Below, piece by piece: positions 17,704 to 64,000 of a stretch of 64,000 nucleotides of DNA (within the stretch, counting starts at the first letter, position 1; each line of letters opens with the position of its first letter). The notes beneath the pieces are model-generated. The model worked only from the letters and a program-made list of their open reading frames with translations, was not told where the DNA came from and made no database searches. A program made the translations under genes and the position numbers. Source of the DNA: Thiocystis violascens DSM 198 (lineage in GTDB: Bacteria; Pseudomonadota; Gammaproteobacteria; Chromatiales; Chromatiaceae); the NCBI RefSeq assembly GCF_000227745.2, contig NC_018012.1, forward strand, positions 1,211,478 through 1,275,477. The letters run 5' to 3'.

Positions 17704-19134
17704 ATGAGCCGCACCATCGCCATCGAACCCGTCACCCGTATCGAAGGCCACGCCCGCATCACCCTGCAACTCGGCGATGATGGCGCGGTCGAGGACGCGC
17801 GCTTCCATCTCACTCAATTCCGCGGCTTCGAGAAGTTCTGCGAGGGCCGCCCCTACCGCGAGATGCCCGCGCTCACCGCGCGCACCTGCGGCATCTGCCC
17901 GGTCAGCCATCTGCTGGCCTCCAACAAGGCGTGCGACCATCTGCTCTCGGTCCGCATCCCGCCGACTGGCGAACATCTGCGCCGGATCATGAATCTCGCG
18001 CAGATCACCCAATCGCATGCCCTGTCCTTCTTCCACCTGTCCTCGCCCGATCTCCTGCTCGGCTGGGACTCGGATCCGGCCACGCGCAACATCTTCGGCG
18101 TGATGCGCCAGGATCCCGCGCTCGCCCGGGATGGCATACGGCTACGCCAGATCGGTCAGAGCATCATCGAAACGCTTGGCGGCAAGAAGATTCATCCCAC
18201 CTGGGTCGTGCCCGGCGGCGTCAACGAACCCCTGACGCTCGAAAAGCGCGACGCCATGCTCAAGCTGCTCCCGGAGGGGCTGGCGATCGCCCGGCGCACC
18301 TATGACTTCTTCAAGACGCTGGTGCCCAAGTTCAAGGACGAGGCGACGCACTTCGGCAGTCTGCCAACGATGTTCCTGAGCCTGGTCACGCCCCAGGGCA
18401 ACTTCGAGCACTATGACGGTCTGCTACGCATCAAGGACGCCCAGGGCCGCATTATTGAGGACATGGTGCCACCCGAGGACTATGAGCGGGTGATCGGCGA
18501 GGCGGTCGAAGACTTCAGCTACATGAAGTTCCCCTACTACAAGCCCCAGGGCTATCCCAAGGGCATCTATCGGGTCGGTCCCCTGGCCCGGCTCAATAAC
18601 GCCCAAGCCTGCGGCACGCCCTATGCGGATGTGGCGCTCGCCGAGTTCCACATGCTCCAGGAGGAATCCGGCCCCATTGCCAGCAGCTTCCACTATCACT
18701 ATGCCCGGCTGGTCGAGATCATCCACGCGTTGGAAATGATGGAACGCCTGCTCAAGGATCCGACAATCCTCGATCATCGGGTGCGGGCACGGGCGCGCAG
18801 CAATCGCGACGAGGGCATCGGCGTCTCAGAAGCGCCGCGCGGCACGCTGATCCATCATTATCGGATCGACGAGGATGGACTCATCACCTGGGTCAACCTG
18901 ATCATCGCCACCGGTCACAACAATCTCGCCATGAACCAGTCGATCCGGCAGGTCGCGGACGCCTATGTCGACGGCAACAACCTGCAGGAAGGCATGCTCA
19001 ACCGGGTCGAGGCGGTCATTCGTTGCTTCGATCCCTGCCTGTCCTGCGCCTCGCACGCCTTCGGTCAGATGCCGCTGCGGATCGAACTCAAGGACGCCGC
19101 CGGACGGGTCATCGACACCCTGAGCCGGTCCTGA
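17704..19134 (+). CDS. hoxH: [NiFe]-hydrogenase large subunit HoxH
   Basis: 476 residues. Carries the NiFe(CN)2CO active site. The four nickel-binding cysteines are present: C62 and C65 in RTCGICPVSH, and C445 and C448 in DPCLSCASH. The protein ends with 25 residues after H451, the maturation tail removed by the endopeptidase HoxW encoded just downstream. The N-terminus IAIEPVTRIEGHARI is the family signature. Activity requires Ni, linking this operon to the nickel transporter and NikR genes elsewhere in the window. Confidence 0.97.
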   Translation: MSRTIAIEPVTRIEGHARITLQLGDDGAVEDARFHLTQFRGFEKFCEGRPYREMPALTARTCGICPVSHLLASNKACDHLLSVRIPPTGEHLRRIMNLAQITQSHALSFFHLSSPDLLLGWDSDPATRNIFGVMRQDPALARDGIRLRQIGQSIIETLGGKKIHPTWVVPGGVNEPLTLEKRDAMLKLLPEGLAIARRTYDFFKTLVPKFKDEATHFGSLPTMFLSLVTPQGNFEHYDGLLRIKDAQGRIIEDMVPPEDYERVIGEAVEDFSYMKFPYYKPQGYPKGIYRVGPLARLNNAQACGTPYADVALAEFHMLQEESGPIASSFHYHYARLVEIIHALEMMERLLKDPTILDHRVRARARSNRDEGIGVSEAPRGTLIHHYRIDEDGLITWVNLIIATGHNNLAMNQSIRQVADAYVDGNNLQEGMLNRVEAVIRCFDPCLSCASHAFGQMPLRIELKDAAGRVIDTLSRS

Positions 19135-40504: not shown

Positions 40505-41380
40505 TCAACGCCCGGACTCAGGCTCGACGAACGTCAGCAGATCCGGTCGAAAATGGGCCACGCCCTCCAGAATGCCGGCGCTGTAGTGGCCATTCATCCC
40601 CGACCAGTCGCCTTTGGCGCAATACAGACGCTCGCTCAGACCACGTTCGGCAGCGCCGCGGCGTGCCCGATCGCGGACATCGGCATGGGCGTTGGCGACC
40701 AGGACCGAGGGAATCGGACTCGTCAGCACCTCCAGGTCGTTACCGCTGTCGCCAGCGAAGAGCGTCGCGTTTTCGTCGCAGCCGAGCGCGCACATCAGGA
40801 AGGTCACGGCATGATATTTGTTGGCCTGTTCGGGCAGCAGGTCGAGCAGTCCGACGGCGGCGGTTTCGTCGATGCTCCAGATCAGGTTGGCGCGCATTCC
40901 GGCCGCTTCAAGACGTTTCCGCAGCCGCGCGAGCAGATCGTCGACGTTCAGATCGAGTGGGACATCGTAGCTGAGCTTGAAAGGAGCCTGTTTTTCGGCT
41001 TCCTGTAATCGCAGTTCCGTCAGATCGGCGAACAAGGCTTGCAGTGCCGCCGCGCCCGGCCAGGTTTGCGCCAGTTCGTCGCTCCAGCCCGGCAGCGGGC
41101 TCCAGACTGCCGTGCCCTCCGCGTCGACCGTCACGGCCTGAATACTTGAACCCACATCACCGATCACATACGCGGGCCAGGGCAGCGCGTAGTCGGCGAT
41201 CGCTTGTTCGACCAACGCCCGATGTCGCCCCGTGACATAGGCCAGGGTCACCCCGTCCCGAGCGACCAGACGGCGGAAACGGGGACGCGCCTCGGGCGAC
41301 TCGGGCTCGCGCCCGTTCGGAATCAGGGTGCGGTCAAGATCGGTGCAGAGCAGCAGCCTGATGGGCATCGCGTCGTTCAT
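40505..41380 (-). CDS. spp: Sucrose-6-phosphate phosphatase
   Basis: 291 residues from ATG 41380, which overlaps the sps stop (ATGA). HAD-superfamily phosphatase with motif I LLCTDLDRTLIPN, motif II AYVTGRHR, Lys in the KLSYDVPLDLN region and motif IV LFAGDSGNDLEVL. All catalytic positions are intact, unlike the phosphatase-like tail of the neighbouring synthase, so this protein should release free sucrose. Confidence 0.92.
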   Translation of the reverse strand: MNDAMPIRLLLCTDLDRTLIPNGREPESPEARPRFRRLVARDGVTLAYVTGRHRALVEQAIADYALPWPAYVIGDVGSSIQAVTVDAEGTAVWSPLPGWSDELAQTWPGAAALQALFADLTELRLQEAEKQAPFKLSYDVPLDLNVDDLLARLRKRLEAAGMRANLIWSIDETAAVGLLDLLPEQANKYHAVTFLMCALGCDENATLFAGDSGNDLEVLTSPIPSVLVANAHADVRDRARRGAAERGLSERLYCAKGDWSGMNGHYSAGILEGVAHFRPDLLTFVEPESGR

Positions 41381-43512
41381 CCCGACACCTGCGGAACGCG
41401 GCAGGAACCGAAGAAGTCGTAATGTTCGACGGCTTCCAGAATCCCCAGCGCATGCGCCTGTTGGGCAAAGTAAATGTTCTCGTGCTCGCCCAGTTGGGAC
41501 AGTTCCTCGCAATGACGGTTCGCCACGACCACCGCCAGGGTGTTGCCGCGCATCATATCCTCATCCGCCCCGGATCCGCCCGCGACCAGGATGTGTTCGA
41601 GCGGAATTCCCAGCCGATGCGCGACATAGCGCAGTGCCTGACCCTTGCTGGCGCGGATCGGGACGATGTCGAGGAATTGCCCGAAGGAATGCACGACATT
41701 GACGCTTTGCTCCTGGGTGCGCAACAGAGTCGCCAGTTCCTCCACCGTGGGCGCGACCGTGGGATCATAGTGATAGGAAATCTTGAAACGGCTCTGCTCG
41801 ACCTTGCGCTGCGGCGTCAGCCCCGAGATCCGCTCAAGGGCGCGGCGCACCGCCTGGGGCTTCCAGAGATGGTCGACATGATCCTTCCAGTAGTCGTCCG
41901 GGATCAGATGCCCGGTGTAATGAATGTCGGTGCCGAGACTTGTGATGAGGATATCCGGCACCGGGATACGATGTTTCTTGAGTTCGGTCAACAGCGAATC
42001 GAGACGCCGCCCGGTCACGATGCCGAAATTCGCGCAACGCTTATTGTCGCGCATCATGGTGACGAAGCGCTCGACGCCCTCGGCATTGCCCAGCAGACTC
42101 TGATCCAGATCGGTGAAGAGCGCGCGATCGCGATAAATGAGACGCCGGCGCGCCGGCGGCGTATCGGGAATGGGCACGGCACGCTTGGCGAGCGGGGCGA
42201 TGCGCTGGCGGTAAAGCTCCGCATGGGCCTGCCAGGAGTAACGTTCGCGTACCCCCGCCAGGCCATTGCGCGAGAAGGTTTGCCAACGTTCGGGATCGCT
42301 CAGGATGTCGAGCAGAGCGGCGGCGATGGCCGCGCGGTCCAGCGGATCGACTAGCAAACCATTCTTGCAGTTGCCGACGATGTCCACCGGCCCGCCGTTT
42401 TCAGTGGCGACCAGCGGCAGACCGGTGGCGGCGGCCTCCAGCAGCGTCAGACCGAAGGGTTCGGTCAGCGCGGGGTTGATGAAGACGCCCTTGGAACGGG
42501 CCACCAAACGATAGATCTCGGGCACCTCGTCGGCACTGTGATGTTTCGGCGCGGCGACCTTGCCATAGAGGTCATAAGCATCGACCGTGAGCAGAATCTC
42601 GGTCAGCACCTCGCGGGCACCTTCGTCCAACTCGCGAATATCGTCGCGGTTGCCGGCGACGATCAAGAGGTTCGCCAGCGCCTGGAGTTCGGGCGATTCG
42701 CCATACGCCTCGATCAGCGTCACGATGTTTTTCCGATGATCGGCGCGCGACAGCGCCAGGATCAAGGGTTTGTCGGGGGCGTCGAGAAAGCGCTTGACCC
42801 GCGCGCCAAAGGCGATCGGCGGATCCTTGGGCGCGGGCGGATGAAACTGCTTCAGATCGGTGCCGGGCGGGATGACGACCATCCGCTCGGGCTGATAATA
42901 GTCATAGAGCGCGTATTGCCCCTCGATCTCGTTATGGGTGCTGGTGATCACCAGGTCCGCGCTGGCCAGCACGGTTTCCTCGGCGTCGATGCGGCGCAGC
43001 ATGTGGTAACGCGCGTCGATCTGTTCGCCATCGAGTCCGGCCGCCAGCAAACGCTGGCGTTTGTCGCGCCCCAGCGAATGGCCGGTATGCACCAGCGGCA
43101 CGCCGATGAGACTGGCCAGTTTCGCGCCCACGTATCCGGCATCGGCGTAATGACTGTGAATGACATCCGGCCAGTGTCCCTGTTCCTGAAGCCAGGCGGC
43201 CAGATTATCCATCAAGCCGTCGAGATGGTCCCAAAGCTGCTCCTTGACGATATAGCCCTCGGGGCCGGCCTCGATGCGGACGATGCGGGATTTTTCGCTC
43301 AGGGGTTCGAGCGGCACGCCATAATCCGCGCTGACGGCCGCGTCGACGACGCGACGGGTGACCAGATCGACCTGCGTCACATCGGCGCGTTCGCCGAGCG
43401 CACGGGCGAGATCGACGACATATTTGGTCTGTCCGCCGGTGTCCGCGTCGCGTCCGAGTTCTAAATCATGGCCACGAATCAGGCCGTGAAGACTGAGCAG
43501 AAGGATGTACAT
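41377..43512 (-). CDS. sps: Sucrose-phosphate synthase with C-terminal phosphatase-like domain
   Basis: 711 residues from ATG 43512 (AGAGGT upstream). GT4 glycosyltransferase joining UDP- or ADP-glucose and fructose-6-phosphate. N-terminal ISLHGL-type start (LLLSLHGLIRGHDLELGRD), DTGGQTKYVVDLARAL, and the donor-site motif FINPALTEPFGLTLLEAAA. From about residue 470 there is a HAD phosphatase-like domain with ALFTDLDQSLLGN, but its motif IV is GGSGADEDM where active enzymes have GDSGND, so it has probably lost activity. Head of the sucrose operon. Confidence 0.94.
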   Translation of the reverse strand: MYILLLSLHGLIRGHDLELGRDADTGGQTKYVVDLARALGERADVTQVDLVTRRVVDAAVSADYGVPLEPLSEKSRIVRIEAGPEGYIVKEQLWDHLDGLMDNLAAWLQEQGHWPDVIHSHYADAGYVGAKLASLIGVPLVHTGHSLGRDKRQRLLAAGLDGEQIDARYHMLRRIDAEETVLASADLVITSTHNEIEGQYALYDYYQPERMVVIPPGTDLKQFHPPAPKDPPIAFGARVKRFLDAPDKPLILALSRADHRKNIVTLIEAYGESPELQALANLLIVAGNRDDIRELDEGAREVLTEILLTVDAYDLYGKVAAPKHHSADEVPEIYRLVARSKGVFINPALTEPFGLTLLEAAATGLPLVATENGGPVDIVGNCKNGLLVDPLDRAAIAAALLDILSDPERWQTFSRNGLAGVRERYSWQAHAELYRQRIAPLAKRAVPIPDTPPARRRLIYRDRALFTDLDQSLLGNAEGVERFVTMMRDNKRCANFGIVTGRRLDSLLTELKKHRIPVPDILITSLGTDIHYTGHLIPDDYWKDHVDHLWKPQAVRRALERISGLTPQRKVEQSRFKISYHYDPTVAPTVEELATLLRTQEQSVNVVHSFGQFLDIVPIRASKGQALRYVAHRLGIPLEHILVAGGSGADEDMMRGNTLAVVVANRHCEELSQLGEHENIYFAQQAHALGILEAVEHYDFFGSCRVPQVSG

Positions 43513-43587
43513 GGAATCGACCTCTGGTGTTTCGCAGGTGGGCGAGTCGGTTGTGCGTCCTCGCGTGGAGTCAGCAACCCAAAGCCC

Positions 43588-43616
43588 CCGACAATGCCCA
43601 CGCATCCCGATACAAT
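43588..43616 (+). promoter_or_regulatory. Candidate sigma-70 promoter of exbB-exbD-tonB
   Basis: CCGACA (43588-43593), a 17-bp spacer and TACAAT (43611-43616) match the sigma-70 consensus at 4/6 and 5/6. It is 35 bp upstream of the exbB start codon. No Fur box was recognised. Confidence 0.45.
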
Positions 43617-57682: not shown

Positions 57683-59092
57683 TCAGTCCGCCAGCACCCA
57701 GGTATCCTTGCTACCCCCGCCCTGCGAGGAATTCACCACCAGCGAGCCCTTGGTCATGGCCACGCGGGTCAAACCGCCAGGAACCACCTCGATCTCGCTG
57801 CCGAAAATGGCGAAGGGGCGCAGATCCAGATGGCGCGACTCCAGTTCGCCGTCCAGATAGCAGAGATGACGCGAGATCTGGACGACCGGCTGGGCGATGT
57901 AGTTGCGCGGATTTTCCTCAATCTTGCGGGCGAACTCGGCGCGCTGGGTCGCGCTGGAGGATGGTCCCATCAACATGCCGTAACCGCCCGACTCGGCCAC
58001 CGCCTTGATGACCATTTTCTGCATGTTATCGAGCACATAGGTGCGATCCTGCGGATCGGTCATTTGATAGGTGGGCACGCTAGCCAGAATCGGCGCCTCG
58101 CCCAGGTAATAGCGGATGATGTCGGGGACATAGGCATAAACCGCCTTGTCGTCGGCGATCCCGGCGCCCGGCGCGTTGGCCAGCGCGACATTGCCCGCGC
58201 GCCAGGCATTGATGACGCCCGCCACACCCAAGGTCGAGTCCGCGCGAAACACCAGCGGATCTAGGAAATCGTCGTCGACCCGCCGATAGATGACATCGAC
58301 TTGTCGCAGACCGAGCGTGGTCTTGAGATAGACTTTGTCGTTCTTGCACACCAGATCTCGCCCCTCGGCGAGTTCGACGCCCATCTCCTTGGCCAGGAAG
58401 GTATGCTCGAAATAGGCCGAGTTGAAGATCCCGGGCGTCAGCACCACGATCACCGCCGACTCGGCCCCGCGCGGCGACAGGTGACGCAGCGCCTGTAACA
58501 GCAAGTCCGGATAGTGCTCGACCCGACGCACCCGATAACGCGCAAAGAATTCGGGCAGGATGCGACGCTCGATGATGCGGTTTTCGATCATGTAGGAGAC
58601 GCCGGAGGGGGTGCGCAGATTGTCCTCCAGCACCAGATAGCGGCCGTCTTCGTCGCGGATCAGATCGACACCGCTGATGTGGGTGTAGATGTCGTGCGGC
58701 GGGATGATATCCATGATCTCGCGGCGGAAATCCTTGCCCCGATAGATCAGCTCTGGCGGCACCACGCCATCCTTGAGGATGCGCTGACCGTGGTAGAGAT
58801 CCTTCAGGAACAGATTCAGCGCCCGAATGCGCTGCTTGATACCCGCCTCGATCTGATTCCATTCGGCGGCGGGGATGATCCGCGGCAGGATATCAAATGG
58901 CCAGACCCGCTCGATGCCCTCGTCCGCGTCGGAATAGACGGTGAAGGTCACCCCTTCGTTATGCAGGGCGAGGTGCGCGTCCCGCGCCTTGGTCCCGAGC
59001 ATCTGCTGCCCGGCGATCTGGATATGCTCCCACATCGGGAGATAGTGCTCGCGGGGACGGAAATCGTCCTGATAGAACTCGTGAAAGGCCAT
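57683..59092 (-). CDS. Circularly permuted type 2 ATP-grasp protein
   Basis: 469 residues from ATG 59092, chosen because GAGGG precedes it at good distance; the frame continues to 59155. Signature segments of this family are RIIPAAEWNQIEAGIKQRIR, ALNLFLKDLYHGQRILKDGV, GVDLIRDEDGRYLVLEDNLR, TPSGVSYMIENR and VLTPGIFNSAYFEHTFLAKE. ATP-grasp ligase chemistry (acyl-phosphate intermediate) is expected; the substrate is not known. It heads the operon ATP-grasp, alpha-E, transglutaminase-like. Confidence 0.93.
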   Translation of the reverse strand: MAFHEFYQDDFRPREHYLPMWEHIQIAGQQMLGTKARDAHLALHNEGVTFTVYSDADEGIERVWPFDILPRIIPAAEWNQIEAGIKQRIRALNLFLKDLYHGQRILKDGVVPPELIYRGKDFRREIMDIIPPHDIYTHISGVDLIRDEDGRYLVLEDNLRTPSGVSYMIENRIIERRILPEFFARYRVRRVEHYPDLLLQALRHLSPRGAESAVIVVLTPGIFNSAYFEHTFLAKEMGVELAEGRDLVCKNDKVYLKTTLGLRQVDVIYRRVDDDFLDPLVFRADSTLGVAGVINAWRAGNVALANAPGAGIADDKAVYAYVPDIIRYYLGEAPILASVPTYQMTDPQDRTYVLDNMQKMVIKAVAESGGYGMLMGPSSSATQRAEFARKIEENPRNYIAQPVVQISRHLCYLDGELESRHLDLRPFAIFGSEIEVVPGGLTRVAMTKGSLVVNSSQGGGSKDTWVLAD

Positions 59093-59338
59093 GACCGGAC
59101 CCTCGTCGCGGTCCTGCAATTGCCCGGTGCCACCGGATTGGAACTGTTTCAGCATGGCGAGAAAGCCCCCTCGACCTGGCCTGTTTCTATCGTTAAATTA
59201 TATCAAGAAACATGCCATACCCTGCCTGATGCCGTGTTTTACTGGAAATTCAATCGTCATCGCCCCCCAGACCTCCCGAGGCGCGTGACAACACCGCTGT
59301 TCGTCTGCCTGAATTGAGGCAAAAGGCCGAACCGAGGC
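59093..59338. other. Intergenic region upstream of the ATP-grasp operon
   Basis: About 250 bp, more AT-rich than its surroundings near 59185-59215. On the minus strand a TATAAT is present at 59202-59197, about 105 bp before the chosen start, but no good -35 lies at the right distance. No small gene was recognised. Confidence 0.4.
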
Positions 59339-59361
59339 AAAAACCGCACCATGAAGGTGCG
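59339..59361 (-). terminator. Intrinsic terminator downstream of the arsenate-reductase-like gene
   Basis: On the minus strand: stem CGCACC / GGTGCG with loop TTCAT, then G and TTTTT. It lies 35 bp after the stop codon of the gene at 59396-59920. Confidence 0.7.
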
Positions 59362-59395
59362 ATTATGGACTCGATTCGCGAATGGACAAAGGCGC

Positions 59396-59920
59396 TCAGT
59401 CGTCCGCGCGCTCCGTGTCGTCCAGACGCACCTGGCCAATGTCATCCAGGCTCTTCTGCAGCTTGAGCCGGTCCAGCGAATTCAATGGTAGGCTGACGAA
59501 AATCTTGATCCGGTTTTCCAATTCCCGAAAAGTCTGACGGAAGGCCATAATGCGCGTCACTTCATCGCCCTCGACTGCAGCGGGATCGGGAAGCCCCCAA
59601 TGAGCGGTCATCGGCTGCCCCGGCCAGACCGGACAGATTTCCGCGACGGCACGGTCGCAGACGGTGAAGACAAAGTCCATCCTGGGCGCATCCGGTTCGG
59701 CAAACTCGGACCAATCCTTGCTGCGCAGTGCGTCGGTCAGATAATTGTTGCGCCTGAGCACCTCCACCGCCAGGGGGTGAACCTCGCCCTTGGGGTGACT
59801 GCCGGCGCTGTAGCCGCGAAAATGGCCGCGACCGTAGCGATTCATCAGGCTCTCGGCAATGATGCTGCGTGCCGAGTTGCCGGTGCAAAGAAAAAGAACA
59901 TTGTAAATTCGATCAGCCAT
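59396..59920 (-). CDS. Arsenate reductase-like low-molecular-weight phosphatase
   Basis: 174 residues. LMW protein-tyrosine-phosphatase fold with the active-site loop VLFLCTGNSARSIIAES and the second conserved segment FVFTVCDRAVAEICPVWPG, as in thioredoxin-linked ArsC. The GYSAGSHPKGEVHPLAVEVL stretch is also typical. The C-terminal 40 residues are an extra helical, charged tail. No arsR or arsenite pump gene is adjacent, so a role in arsenic resistance is likely but not shown by context. Confidence 0.85.
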   Translation of the reverse strand: MADRIYNVLFLCTGNSARSIIAESLMNRYGRGHFRGYSAGSHPKGEVHPLAVEVLRRNNYLTDALRSKDWSEFAEPDAPRMDFVFTVCDRAVAEICPVWPGQPMTAHWGLPDPAAVEGDEVTRIMAFRQTFRELENRIKIFVSLPLNSLDRLKLQKSLDDIGQVRLDDTERADD

Positions 59921-60100
59921 GGTCTGTCCCCGAAGCGGTCGGAAAGGTCTGTCAGAGCGCAGCTCCGTGACCGGCGATCGGCCCGCAAGCGCGCCTCGTG
60001 GTACCGTGCCAACGCGCCGTCGAACGCGGATACCCCGCGAGGCATCCGCATGCGATCAGAACGTGTGACCGGCATGCCGCATCGTCGCCGATCTTTATGA

Positions 60101-60612
60101 CGACAGCATGACGACCGAATTGGTGCTGAATCAAAATGGCGCTGGCTCAACCGCGACGTACACGACTATTATGATGCCGTCATCTGTCTGGGCAACTCGT
60201 TCACCCATCTGCACGACGAAAACGATCGCCGTAAGGCGCTAGCGGAGTTCTATGCCACGCTGCGTCACGATGGCATCCTGATCCTCGATCAGCGCAACTA
60301 TGACGCCATTCTCGATCATCAGATCGCACCCACCCACAACTATTACTACTGCGGCGAGAATGCACGCGCCCAACCCGAGCATGTCGACGAGTCCCTGGCC
60401 CGGTTCCTCTACGAGTTCCCCGGCGAGCACGTCTCCTACCTTATAACATGTTTCCCTTGCGCAAGAATTACACCCGTCGTCTGCTATACGAAGTCGGTTT
60501 CCAACACGTGACGACCTACGGCGATTTCAAGGAGACCTACCGCGACGACGAGCCCGATTTCTTCATTCATGTCGCCGAAAAACTTTATGTGGAAGGGGGC
60601 GAGGAAGAATGA
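60101..60612 (+). pseudogene. 5'-truncated, frameshifted glycine/sarcosine N-methyltransferase
   Basis: Reads WRWLNRDVHDYYDAVICLGN, then SFTHLHDENDRRKALAEFY, GILILDQRNYDAILDH and YYYCGENARAQPEHVDE, matching the C-terminal half of Ectothiorhodospira-type glycine sarcosine N-methyltransferase. At about 60440-60447 the frame breaks; it resumes as NMFPLRKNYTRRLLYEVGFQ and ends DEPDFFIHVAEKLYVE. The N-terminal half with the SAM-binding loop is missing: the frame is closed by a TGA at 60098. The enzyme normally makes sarcosine and dimethylglycine from glycine on the way to betaine. Confidence 0.88.
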
Positions 60613-61443
60613 GCGAGCCGCACTCAACGGTCGTCGAGACCGCCCGCCACTACCACAACAGCGACGACGCCGACAACTTCTACTTCCATGTCTGGGGCGG
60701 CGAGGACATCCACATCGGTCTCTGCCAGCAACCGCACGAGGCGATCGCCGATGCCAGCCGGCGCACGCATGGCCGCGCAAGTACCGGGGCTGGGATCCGA
60801 CACCAGGTGCTCGACATGGTCGCGGGCTATGGCGGCGCGGCCCGCTGGCTGCCAGGTGACAGCGCTCAACCTGAGCGAAAAGGAAAACGCGCGCCACCGG
60901 GAGATGAATCGCGAACAGGGTCTCGACCACCTGATCGAGGTGGTGGACGGAAGCTTCGAGGCCGTCCCCTATCCCGACGGCGTTTTCGACCTAGTCTGGT
61001 CGCAGGACGCCATCCTGCACAGTGGACTGCGCGCGCGGGTCGTCGCCGAGGCCGCCAGGGTGCTGCGACACGGCGGCGACTTCGTCTTCACGGACCCCAT
61101 GCAGGCGGACGACTGTCCGGAGGGCGTGCTGCGCCCGGTCCTCGAACGCATCCATCTGGAGAGCCTGGGATCCATCGGCTTCTACAATGAGACGGCCGCC
61201 CGCCATGGCCTCGCGGCGTCGGCGGCGATCGAGACGACGGAAAACCTGGTGACCCACTACGGAAGGGTGTGCGAGAAACTCGCCCAGGCCCGCGAGGCAC
61301 TCGCCGGAAAGGTCTCGGACGTCTATCTCGACCGCATGCTCGATGGTCTGGGACATTGGGTCGATGCCGGAACCGCCGGCTATCTCCGGTGGGGCATCCT
61401 GCATTTCAAAAAGCACGCCCTAACGACTGCGATTGCCGCGTGA
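60609..61443 (+). pseudogene. Frameshifted sarcosine/dimethylglycine N-methyltransferase
   Basis: Starts normally (NFYFHVWGGEDIHIGLCQQP), with its ATG overlapping the previous stop. It then needs at least three frame changes between about 60765 and 60853 to read RMAAQVPGLGSDTR, VLDMVAGYGGAARWL, then GCQVTALNLSEKENARHREM. From there it is open to the end (LGHWVDAGTAGYLRWGILHF). The SAM loop, normally VLDIGAGYGG, is VLDMVAGYGG. It would finish betaine synthesis by methylating sarcosine and dimethylglycine, but is almost certainly dead. Confidence 0.88.
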
Positions 61444-62966
61444 CTGACGCGTCATCAACCCCTCGATCCGCTGGCGGATGTCGCGCAAGCTCAAGCGGCC
61501 GACCGGTTGACGGCTGGCGGCGCGCGCGGCATCCGCGGCGTCGACGCGCTCCTTGACGATGCGGGCGAAGCGCTCGGCCAGTTCCGGGCGCGCCGACAGC
61601 AGGCTTTGCACGCACTCCAGATCGATGCGGATCAGGGTGACATCGCTTTTGGCGCGCAATTCCAGGAATGACGGCTCATTCGTCAGCATGGATTCGATGC
61701 CAAAGTGGTGGCCGGGCGCCAGGTTTTCGGTCACTTTGCGGGTACGGTCCGGCAGCGTAATGGCGGCTTCCACCAGACCGCCGACCACCACATAGAAGGC
61801 ATCGCTCGCGGCGCCTTCCGCCAGGATGACGTGGCCGCTGTCGAAATGACAATAGACGCTACGCGCCGCGATCTGCTCCAATTCCACCTGCGTCAATTGA
61901 CCCGCGACATCCAACCCCTTGAGCGCGAGCAGGATGGTGGGCGGCTCGGCCTGCGCAATGGACGCGCGGCGCGTGTGAATTTCGTGAACCTCGGGTGCCA
62001 GACTGATCCCGCGCGTTGCAGCGCCCAGTGAATCTCGCGAAAGAGTTCCTCGCGGCCTCGAAACACCGCCGGGTAATTTTTGAGATGGACCCAGACCATG
62101 TATTTGTAGGGAACAGTGCTGGCGTCCGCGAGCCGGACGATCGGGTAGGGAAACTTGAGGACGCTTTCGCACCGCAAGGCCGCGTCGAGGATAAGCGCCG
62201 TGGCAAAGCGCGGATCGATCTCGGCCGGAATCTGGACGAAGTACCAGGGCGCGAACAGATGCTGATCATCGTGGAGATTCTTCAGCGGCTCGCCGGCCAT
62301 CCGTGCATTCGGAATGACGTGCGTGGCGTTGTCCCAGCCGCGAAGCCAGGTCGCGCGCCAATTGAGATCGATCACCTGACCGACGGTACCGTCGCGCAAC
62401 TCAACCCAGTCGCCCAGTTTAAAGGGGCGTTCGATGCCGAGGGCGATGCCGGAGAAGAGATCGCCGAGGGTTCGTTGCAGCGCCAGGCCCAGGACGCCGG
62501 CGGCGACCCCGGTGGAGACCCAGATCCCCGCAAAGGAATAGCCCTGCTGCCACATGAACAACCCGAGTCCAAAGAGCATGAGGACGACGTAAATCAAACC
62601 GACGACCAGCTTTGGCAGCTGATCGGGCAGCATCCCGCCAGCCCGCTTCCGCAAGAGCACTTCGATCAGATGCGCCAGCAGCCAGGCGCCGACCAGGTAG
62701 CCGACGACCAAGGCGCCCGTCTGGATCGCGTCATCCAGTTCCGTGAGCCCGAGTTCCCGAACAACCAAATTAAGCAAATTCCAGCCCAGAAAGAGCAGTG
62801 CGGGAATCAAGACCAGATCGGCCAGAGCGAGCATGATCGGAAAGCGTCTGGCAAGCCATCGGCCAAACAAGAACACATTTCCCAAACGCCAGGCCATCAA
62901 CAGCAGCGACATCCCCAGAAGGATCTGCCAGTGCAGATGCGCGAATTTCTCGAATTGGTCGATCAT
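61420..62966 (-). pseudogene. MscS-family channel fused to a cyclic-nucleotide-binding domain, split by a frameshift
   Basis: The N-terminal part has several membrane helices and the MscS pore and beta domain (GVAAGVLGLALQRTLGDLFS, then GIALGIERPFKLGDWVELRD). At the run of three G (plus-strand CCC at 62008-62010) the frame is lost after REIHWALQRAG; with one extra G it continues ISLAPEVHEIHTRR into a Crp-like cyclic-nucleotide-binding domain (FDSGHVILAEGAASDAFYVV) and ends at 61420. MscS-cNMP fusions of about 515 residues are a known type. Without the shift the channel part ends after 357 residues. It could be a true mutation, a sequencing error in the G-run, or slippage. Confidence 0.82.
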
Positions 62967-63056
62967 CGTCCGCGAGGCGCCTTCAACTGCATCCGGTTTC
63001 GCATGCGTGGTTGCGAGCGGTCTTTACGCCACCCGTCATGATCGGCGAGTCGAGGC

Positions 63057-64000
63057 TCAGGAGCCGCCTTCACCGTAATAGTTGCCGATATAATTCTCGA
63101 ACTTGGTGTATTTGCCGAGAAAGGTCAGGCGCGTGGTGCCGATCGGTCCGTTGCGCTGTTTCGCGATGATGATCTCGGCGATCCCCTTGTCGTTGCTGTC
63201 CTCGTTGTAGACCTCGTCGCGATAGATGAAGACGATCAAATCTGCATCCTGTTCGATGGCGCCCGATTCGCGCAGATCCGACATCACCGGGCGTTTATTC
63301 GGACGCTGTTCGAGACTGCGATTGAGCTGCGAGAGCGCGATCACGGGCACGTTCAGCTCCTTGGCCAGCGCCTTCAGCGAACGCGAAATAGCCGAGATCT
63401 CGGTCGCGCGGTTTTCGGTGGAGCCCGGCGCCTGCATCAATTGCAGATAGTCCAGCACGATCAGCCCCAGATCGTTCTGGTCACGCTTGAGACGCCGTGC
63501 CCGCGCGCGCACCTCGGTGGGCGACAGCGCCGGCGTGTCGTCGATGAACATGGGCGCGGCGGAGAGGATGTTCACCGCCGAGGTCAAGCGCGGCCATTCG
63601 TCGTCCTCCAGCTTCCCGGTCCGCACCCGATGCTGATCGATCCGCCCCAGCGAGGACATCATGCGCATGGCGAGCGAATCGCCCGGCATCTCCATGCTGA
63701 AGATGGCGACCGGACGCTTGGACTGAATCGCGACATGCTCGGCCATGTTCATCGCGAGACTGGTTTTGCCCATCGAGGGACGGCCGGCCACGATAATGAG
63801 ATCCGCCGGTTGCAGTCCCGAGGTCATCTCGTCGAAGTCCGAGAAACCCGTGGCAAGACCGGTGATCGCCTCGTCACGTTGATAGAGCAAGTCGATCCGC
63901 TCGACCGCCCGGCTCAGCAGGGTTTTGATGGGCTGGAAACCGCCACCGCCGCGCGCCTCCTGCTCGGCGATCGCGAAGACCCGTCGCTCCGCGTCGTCGA
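63057..64000 (-). CDS. dnaB: Replicative DNA helicase DnaB, N-terminal part outside the window
   Basis: At least 314 residues of the C-terminal RecA-like domain; the frame continues off the right edge. Walker A is VAGRPSMGKTSLAMNMAEH, Walker B IVLDYLQLMQ, and further motifs are VPVIALSQLNRSLEQR, SDLRESGAIEQDADLI and RNGPIGTTRLTFLGKYTKFE. It unwinds DNA at the replication fork. The part before position 63890 contains the linker region (RAVERIDLLYQRDEAITGL). Confidence 0.96.
   Translation of the reverse strand, partial: DDAERRVFAIAEQEARGGGGFQPIKTLLSRAVERIDLLYQRDEAITGLATGFSDFDEMTSGLQPADLIIVAGRPSMGKTSLAMNMAEHVAIQSKRPVAIFSMEMPGDSLAMRMMSSLGRIDQHRVRTGKLEDDEWPRLTSAVNILSAAPMFIDDTPALSPTEVRARARRLKRDQNDLGLIVLDYLQLMQAPGSTENRATEISAISRSLKALAKELNVPVIALSQLNRSLEQRPNKRPVMSDLRESGAIEQDADLIVFIYRDEVYNEDSNDKGIAEIIIAKQRNGPIGTTRLTFLGKYTKFENYIGNYYGEGGS

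Follow-up and report, generated by a model that had tools for sequence, protein, structure and literature searches.

Decayed part of a Thiocapsa-type osmoadaptation island, a probable horizontal acquisition, in Thiocystis violascens DSM 198

Whether the damaged glycine betaine genes of Thiocystis violascens DSM 198 record the recent loss of a working pathway by this strain, or the decay of genes that came from elsewhere, is the question raised by positions 60101-61443 of the 64,000-nucleotide stretch of contig NC_018012.1 analysed here (the window, to which coordinates refer unless otherwise stated). The decay of the two methyltransferase genes, gsmt and sdmt, is of an ordinary kind and is partly in print already: Table 3 of Imhoff et al. 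2020 (PMC7824335) lists this freshwater strain, alone with GMT among the freshwater Chromatiaceae rows consulted, as "GMTtruncated,DMT", which agrees with the window in the truncated GMT and in the presence of DMT, but the row is silent on DMT being broken. The same table gives Thiocapsa marina as opuA...GMT,DMT,betT, with both methyltransferases ordered as they are in the window. According to the paper, freshwater members of the Chromatiaceae, Thiocystis species among them, lack betaine synthesis and transport. Its main text nowhere uses "pseudogene", "mechanosensitive" or "horizontal", and among the papers listed by text searches, judged by title and abstract opening, no other was seen to deal with the locus. 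Surveys of compatible solutes give presence or absence, and the 'DMT' listed for this strain is a pseudogene; nor does a truncated GMT necessarily amount to the loss of a working pathway by the strain that carries it.

Remnants of the two methyltransferase genes

The first-pass annotation had described both glycine-to-betaine methyltransferases as remnants, and this was borne out by the NCBIfam pieces and by a frame-aware alignment to the intact locus L085, made with a purpose-written script that used L085 as the reference and in which the exact placement of each break is the aligner's choice. The gsmt remnant (60128..60606, forward strand) matches NF051855 (glycine/sarcosine N-methyltransferase) in two pieces, at 60128-60442 (E 1.4e-54, profile positions 107-209 of 259) and, for the end of the model, at 60448-60612 (E 4.3e-22, positions 212-258), with a frame shift near 60440. 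As had been proposed, the N-terminal portion is gone: approximately 106 of the 259 model positions are missing, homology begins at residue 170 of the 329-residue stop-to-stop frame of L085, and the better piece scores 185.5 bits, below the curated cut-off of 350 bits for the whole protein. What remains is identical to the L085 ortholog at 142 of 158 residues. The SAM-binding element that we take to be motif I is lost with the N-terminal part, which was not found elsewhere in the window (best E 0.12).

The sdmt remnant (60609..61443, forward strand) likewise matches its model, NF041675 (sarcosine/dimethylglycine N-methyltransferase), at the start (60609-60800, E 1.7e-20, positions 5-58 of 278) and over the rest (60871-61443, E 6.9e-76, positions 97-277), and is 61-80% identical to 19 intact rows, as expected from common descent with intact members of that family. 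The predicted three or more frameshifts and damaged SAM loop were both recovered: relative to L085 the continuous frame is broken near 60765 (8 bases lost), 60808 (one base) and 60849 (17 bases), SAM motif I has changed from LDMGAGYGG to LDMVAGYGG with the loss of one glycine, and the last residues have been replaced. No second gsmt copy was found in the 5,017,071-base genome, in which the five other model matches are weak (E 1.2e-3 to 0.57), and no second sdmt copy among the matches listed (at least eight), of which the best other (E 3.7e-11) covers part of the model; those listed are at the level of general methyltransferases. With gsmt lacking the part that holds its N-terminal SAM-binding motif and sdmt out of frame, betaine should no longer be produced from this locus, as judged from its sequence.

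Sequencing or assembly error as the source of the breaks is very improbable. Single-base changes account for the sdmt break at 60808 and for a break in a third gene described below, and the gsmt shift is small, all of which would be plausible errors of older sequencing. However, base-calling error is no tenable explanation for sdmt overall in view of its 8- and 17-base deletions, which upholds the earlier judgement on that gene, and together with the missing gsmt N-terminus and a missing transporter gene these deletions led us to reject error for the locus as a whole. The surplus of second-position changes that gsmt and sdmt show on the window's side of the comparison (p 0.002) also speaks against error, as does the truncated GMT of T. 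violascens in the published table (PMC7824335), although that entry probably derives from the same genome.

Extent of the segment and its empty site in relatives

The remnant reaches approximately 63042, well beyond the 61443 at which the first-pass annotation had ended it, and takes in a split mechanosensitive channel gene and the site of a lost BCCT transporter gene. On the left it is flanked by a low-molecular-weight phosphatase family gene (59396..59920, reverse strand; Pfam LMWPc), which is common to the two closest relatives, G004 and G005, and which we take to be arsC-like, and on the right by what, from its sequence, is presumably a dnaB-like helicase gene (63057..64000, reverse strand, running off the window), with 96-97% DNA identity to the same two genomes. 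In a blastn comparison the stretch from approximately 60114 to 63042 (about 2.9 kb) is absent from both relatives, in which the flanking genes lie only 73 (G004) and 42 (G005) bases apart, while the left side is 90.5% and 93.1% identical, respectively, over 7.4 kb. Such an empty site in two close relatives is what a horizontally acquired segment is expected to leave. In a third genome of the genus, G001, different genes stand beside the dnaB-like gene.

At the left junction (60113..60137), homology to the empty site stops at 60112/60113 and Thiocapsa-type DNA homology begins at 60137, so that the cut in gsmt, whose remnant starts at 60128-60137, coincides with the edge of the segment within 25 bases. 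At the right junction zone (62967..63050), empty-site homology resumes at 63043 (G005) or 63051 (G004). The longest repeats shared by the junctions are a direct one of 6 bases and an inverted one of 8 bases, and the GC content of the segment (0.619) equals that of its flanks; neither junction repeats nor odd composition therefore mark it as acquired. No leftover island sequence was found in the empty-site spacers (20 to 197 of 200 shuffles scored equally high in six window comparisons) and no RNA families at 59000-64000; a plasmid collection gave two partial matches only, covering 33% and 10% of the query, which are uninformative.

Within the segment, sdmt directly meets a convergent gene for a mechanosensitive channel with a cyclic-nucleotide-binding domain (mscS-cNMP; 61420..62966, reverse strand), the two overlapping at 61420-61443. 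In L085 the corresponding genes are separated by 2155 bases that include a BCCT gene, which places the missing transporter at 61414..61438 in the window, and no BCCT match was found in any of the seven genus genomes (this one and six others). Near 62014 the window's mscS-cNMP gene carries one base fewer than that of L085 and is thereby split into two frames, of which the 357-residue one contains the MS channel domain (Pfam); the gene is unbroken, at 502-612 residues stop to stop, in all nine relatives compared, in one of which a contig end truncates it. The comparison with relatives carrying intact genes that had been suggested thus exposed the lesions of gsmt and sdmt together with the missing BCCT and the split mscS-cNMP gene.

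Several Thiocapsa-type loci run from opuAC through another gene to gsmt, sdmt and BCCT, and then to a convergent mscS-cNMP gene. The series gsmt-sdmt-(BCCT)-convergent mscS was observed in L085, L113 and L117 and in two named Thiocapsa loci, L126 and L129; L117 and L126 are apparently one contig. Pfam confirmed BCCT in L085 and opuAC in L117, and tblastn confirmed both genes in the named loci L126, L127 and L129. Among the six g24 genomes with gsmt, mscS lies near it in four (G162, G209, G205 and G186) and not in the G175 stretch, while the contig of the sixth (G213) is too short to show it. The order is not universal among Thiocapsa-type loci: the named T. marina locus L127 gave no mscS match within 18.3 kb, and G029 has mscS but gave no gsmt match. 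The window shares the convergent mscS-cNMP with Thiocapsa loci, but without the BCCT gene that precedes it there, and differs from them further in its cut gsmt, out-of-frame sdmt and split mscS-cNMP. Its flanks, the arsC-like and dnaB-like genes, also differ from the opuA genes reported beside GMT in Thiocapsa marina (PMC7824335). In Thiocystis violacea DSM 208 (L131), mscS follows sdmt on the same strand rather than converging on it as in the window and in Thiocapsa-type loci.

Placement in trees and origin of the segment

Neither gsmt, nor this mscS, nor DNA matching the segment was found in any of the six other genus genomes (five drafts more than 90% complete and one 88% complete with 14% contamination), whereas gsmt matches at E<=1e-15 occur in 44 of 194 genomes of a family sample that includes the present remnant and those six. 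In a tree of gsmt and sdmt (427 columns, 20 rows) the window groups with five Thiocapsa-group rows (100/99), as it does in a tree of mscS-cNMP (10 rows; 100/99), but a tree of LptD (25 rows) joins its genus to G096, G126 and G076 and keeps it separate from the Thiocapsa group (100/100). LptD identities to the window, 61-62% for G162, G175 and G209 against 67-68% for G096, G126 and G076, rank in the reverse of the gsmt and sdmt identities. This conflict points to transfer, although LptD is one host gene and may not reflect the species tree. The dnaB gene was rejected as a phylogenetic marker because it is too conserved, at 92-94% for the genomes in question and 91% over part of its length for G076. 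Forcing the window together with G126 and G096 in the gsmt and sdmt tree gave a p-AU of 0.018, the groups having been chosen after a first tree had been inspected; adding G076 gave 5.6e-11, an inflated value since G076 is itself placed elsewhere in that tree. The window's branch joins outside the sampled Thiocapsa rows, so none of them is identified as the donor.

These observations are best explained if the segment is a fragment of an osmoadaptation island of Thiocapsa type that probably came by horizontal transfer and has decayed since. Part of such an island (gsmt, sdmt, BCCT and the convergent mscS-cNMP gene), of which about 2.9 kb is now present, would have arrived between the arsC-like and dnaB-like genes once the lineage had separated from its closest relatives, gsmt would have been cut at the left edge upon arrival or soon afterwards, and BCCT and parts of sdmt would have been removed by deletion. 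The cell probably depends on sucrose and perhaps on ABC uptake. The locus would then be a small example of salt-protection genes that apparently passed from a relative of marine type into a lineage of freshwater type and decayed there. Given that gsmt is cut at the segment edge and that sequence and gene order are of Thiocapsa type, the locus may have arrived incomplete; we entertain, tentatively, that the operon was dead on arrival, the transfer itself having cut gsmt, that it never produced betaine here, and that mscS-cNMP was useful until, or even beyond, a very recent break.

Vertical inheritance, under which a working ancestral island was removed completely in the relatives and partly here, with betaine synthesis lost recently, is possible but the less probable origin. 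It would accord with the reported lack of betaine synthesis in freshwater Chromatiaceae, including Thiocystis, and with the loss proposed for some other phototroph groups (PMC7824335), and also with dN/dS values against G162 that are low for gsmt (0.032) and sdmt (0.165), which would make the decay recent relative to the divergence. These values, and that of mscS (0.143), are rough because dS is near saturation (1.45, 0.80 and 1.08 for gsmt, sdmt and mscS), and they indicate that most of the divergence accumulated under selection, wherever the genes then resided. Against vertical inheritance, it requires a clean loss in G004 and G005 with its left edge exactly at the gsmt cut, and losses in G001-G003 and G006 as well, and it conflicts with the disagreement between the gsmt, sdmt and mscS trees and that of LptD. 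The first-pass annotation had held that the strain recently lost de novo betaine synthesis; both genes are indeed decayed, no second copy was found and the low dN/dS fits, but loss by the strain is one possibility only, given the six genus genomes without gsmt, the empty sites and a locus that was perhaps incomplete when it arrived.

The substitution pattern bears on what the segment may still do. For gsmt and sdmt together, the window's side shows an excess of changes at second positions (23/104 versus 6/96, Fisher p 0.002), with no excess at first and second positions for gsmt alone (8/35 versus 4/35, p 0.34) or for mscS (60/160 versus 51/121, p 0.46); as these contrasts were picked after the counts were known, they lend mild support to a relaxation of constraint, chiefly in sdmt. 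It is conceivable, if rather doubtful, that the methyltransferase remnants are inert while mscS still encodes a working channel, without its cNMP domain or, should the break be an error, with it, and that the segment has been retained as a valve. The MS channel domain within the 357-residue frame and the lack of excess changes in mscS would favour this, although a very recent break would leave an identical substitution pattern. Retention as a valve is compatible with either origin of the segment.

Sucrose synthesis, uptake and other genes

The sucrose operon that had been called intact was substantiated for its key enzyme: sucrose-phosphate synthase with a phosphatase domain (41377..43605, reverse strand) has an open frame and passes the cut-offs of both TIGR02472 and TIGR02471, and close by lie a PfkB kinase and a frame of the alpha-amylase family. 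The suggested check for betaine transporters elsewhere in the genome found, beside the absence of BCCT, a single protein with an OpuAC domain, in a frame of 685 residues (C1:490779-491546, locus L124) that we judge from its sequence to include a permease-like part. OpuAC matches occur in three of the seven genus genomes, namely this one, G004 and G005, although no betaine transport is given for freshwater Thiocystis in PMC7824335. Elsewhere in the window, at 17704-19134 on the forward strand, lies a nickel-iron hydrogenase large subunit that resembles the F420-non-reducing Vhu type, at 382 bits against a cut-off of 800 bits.
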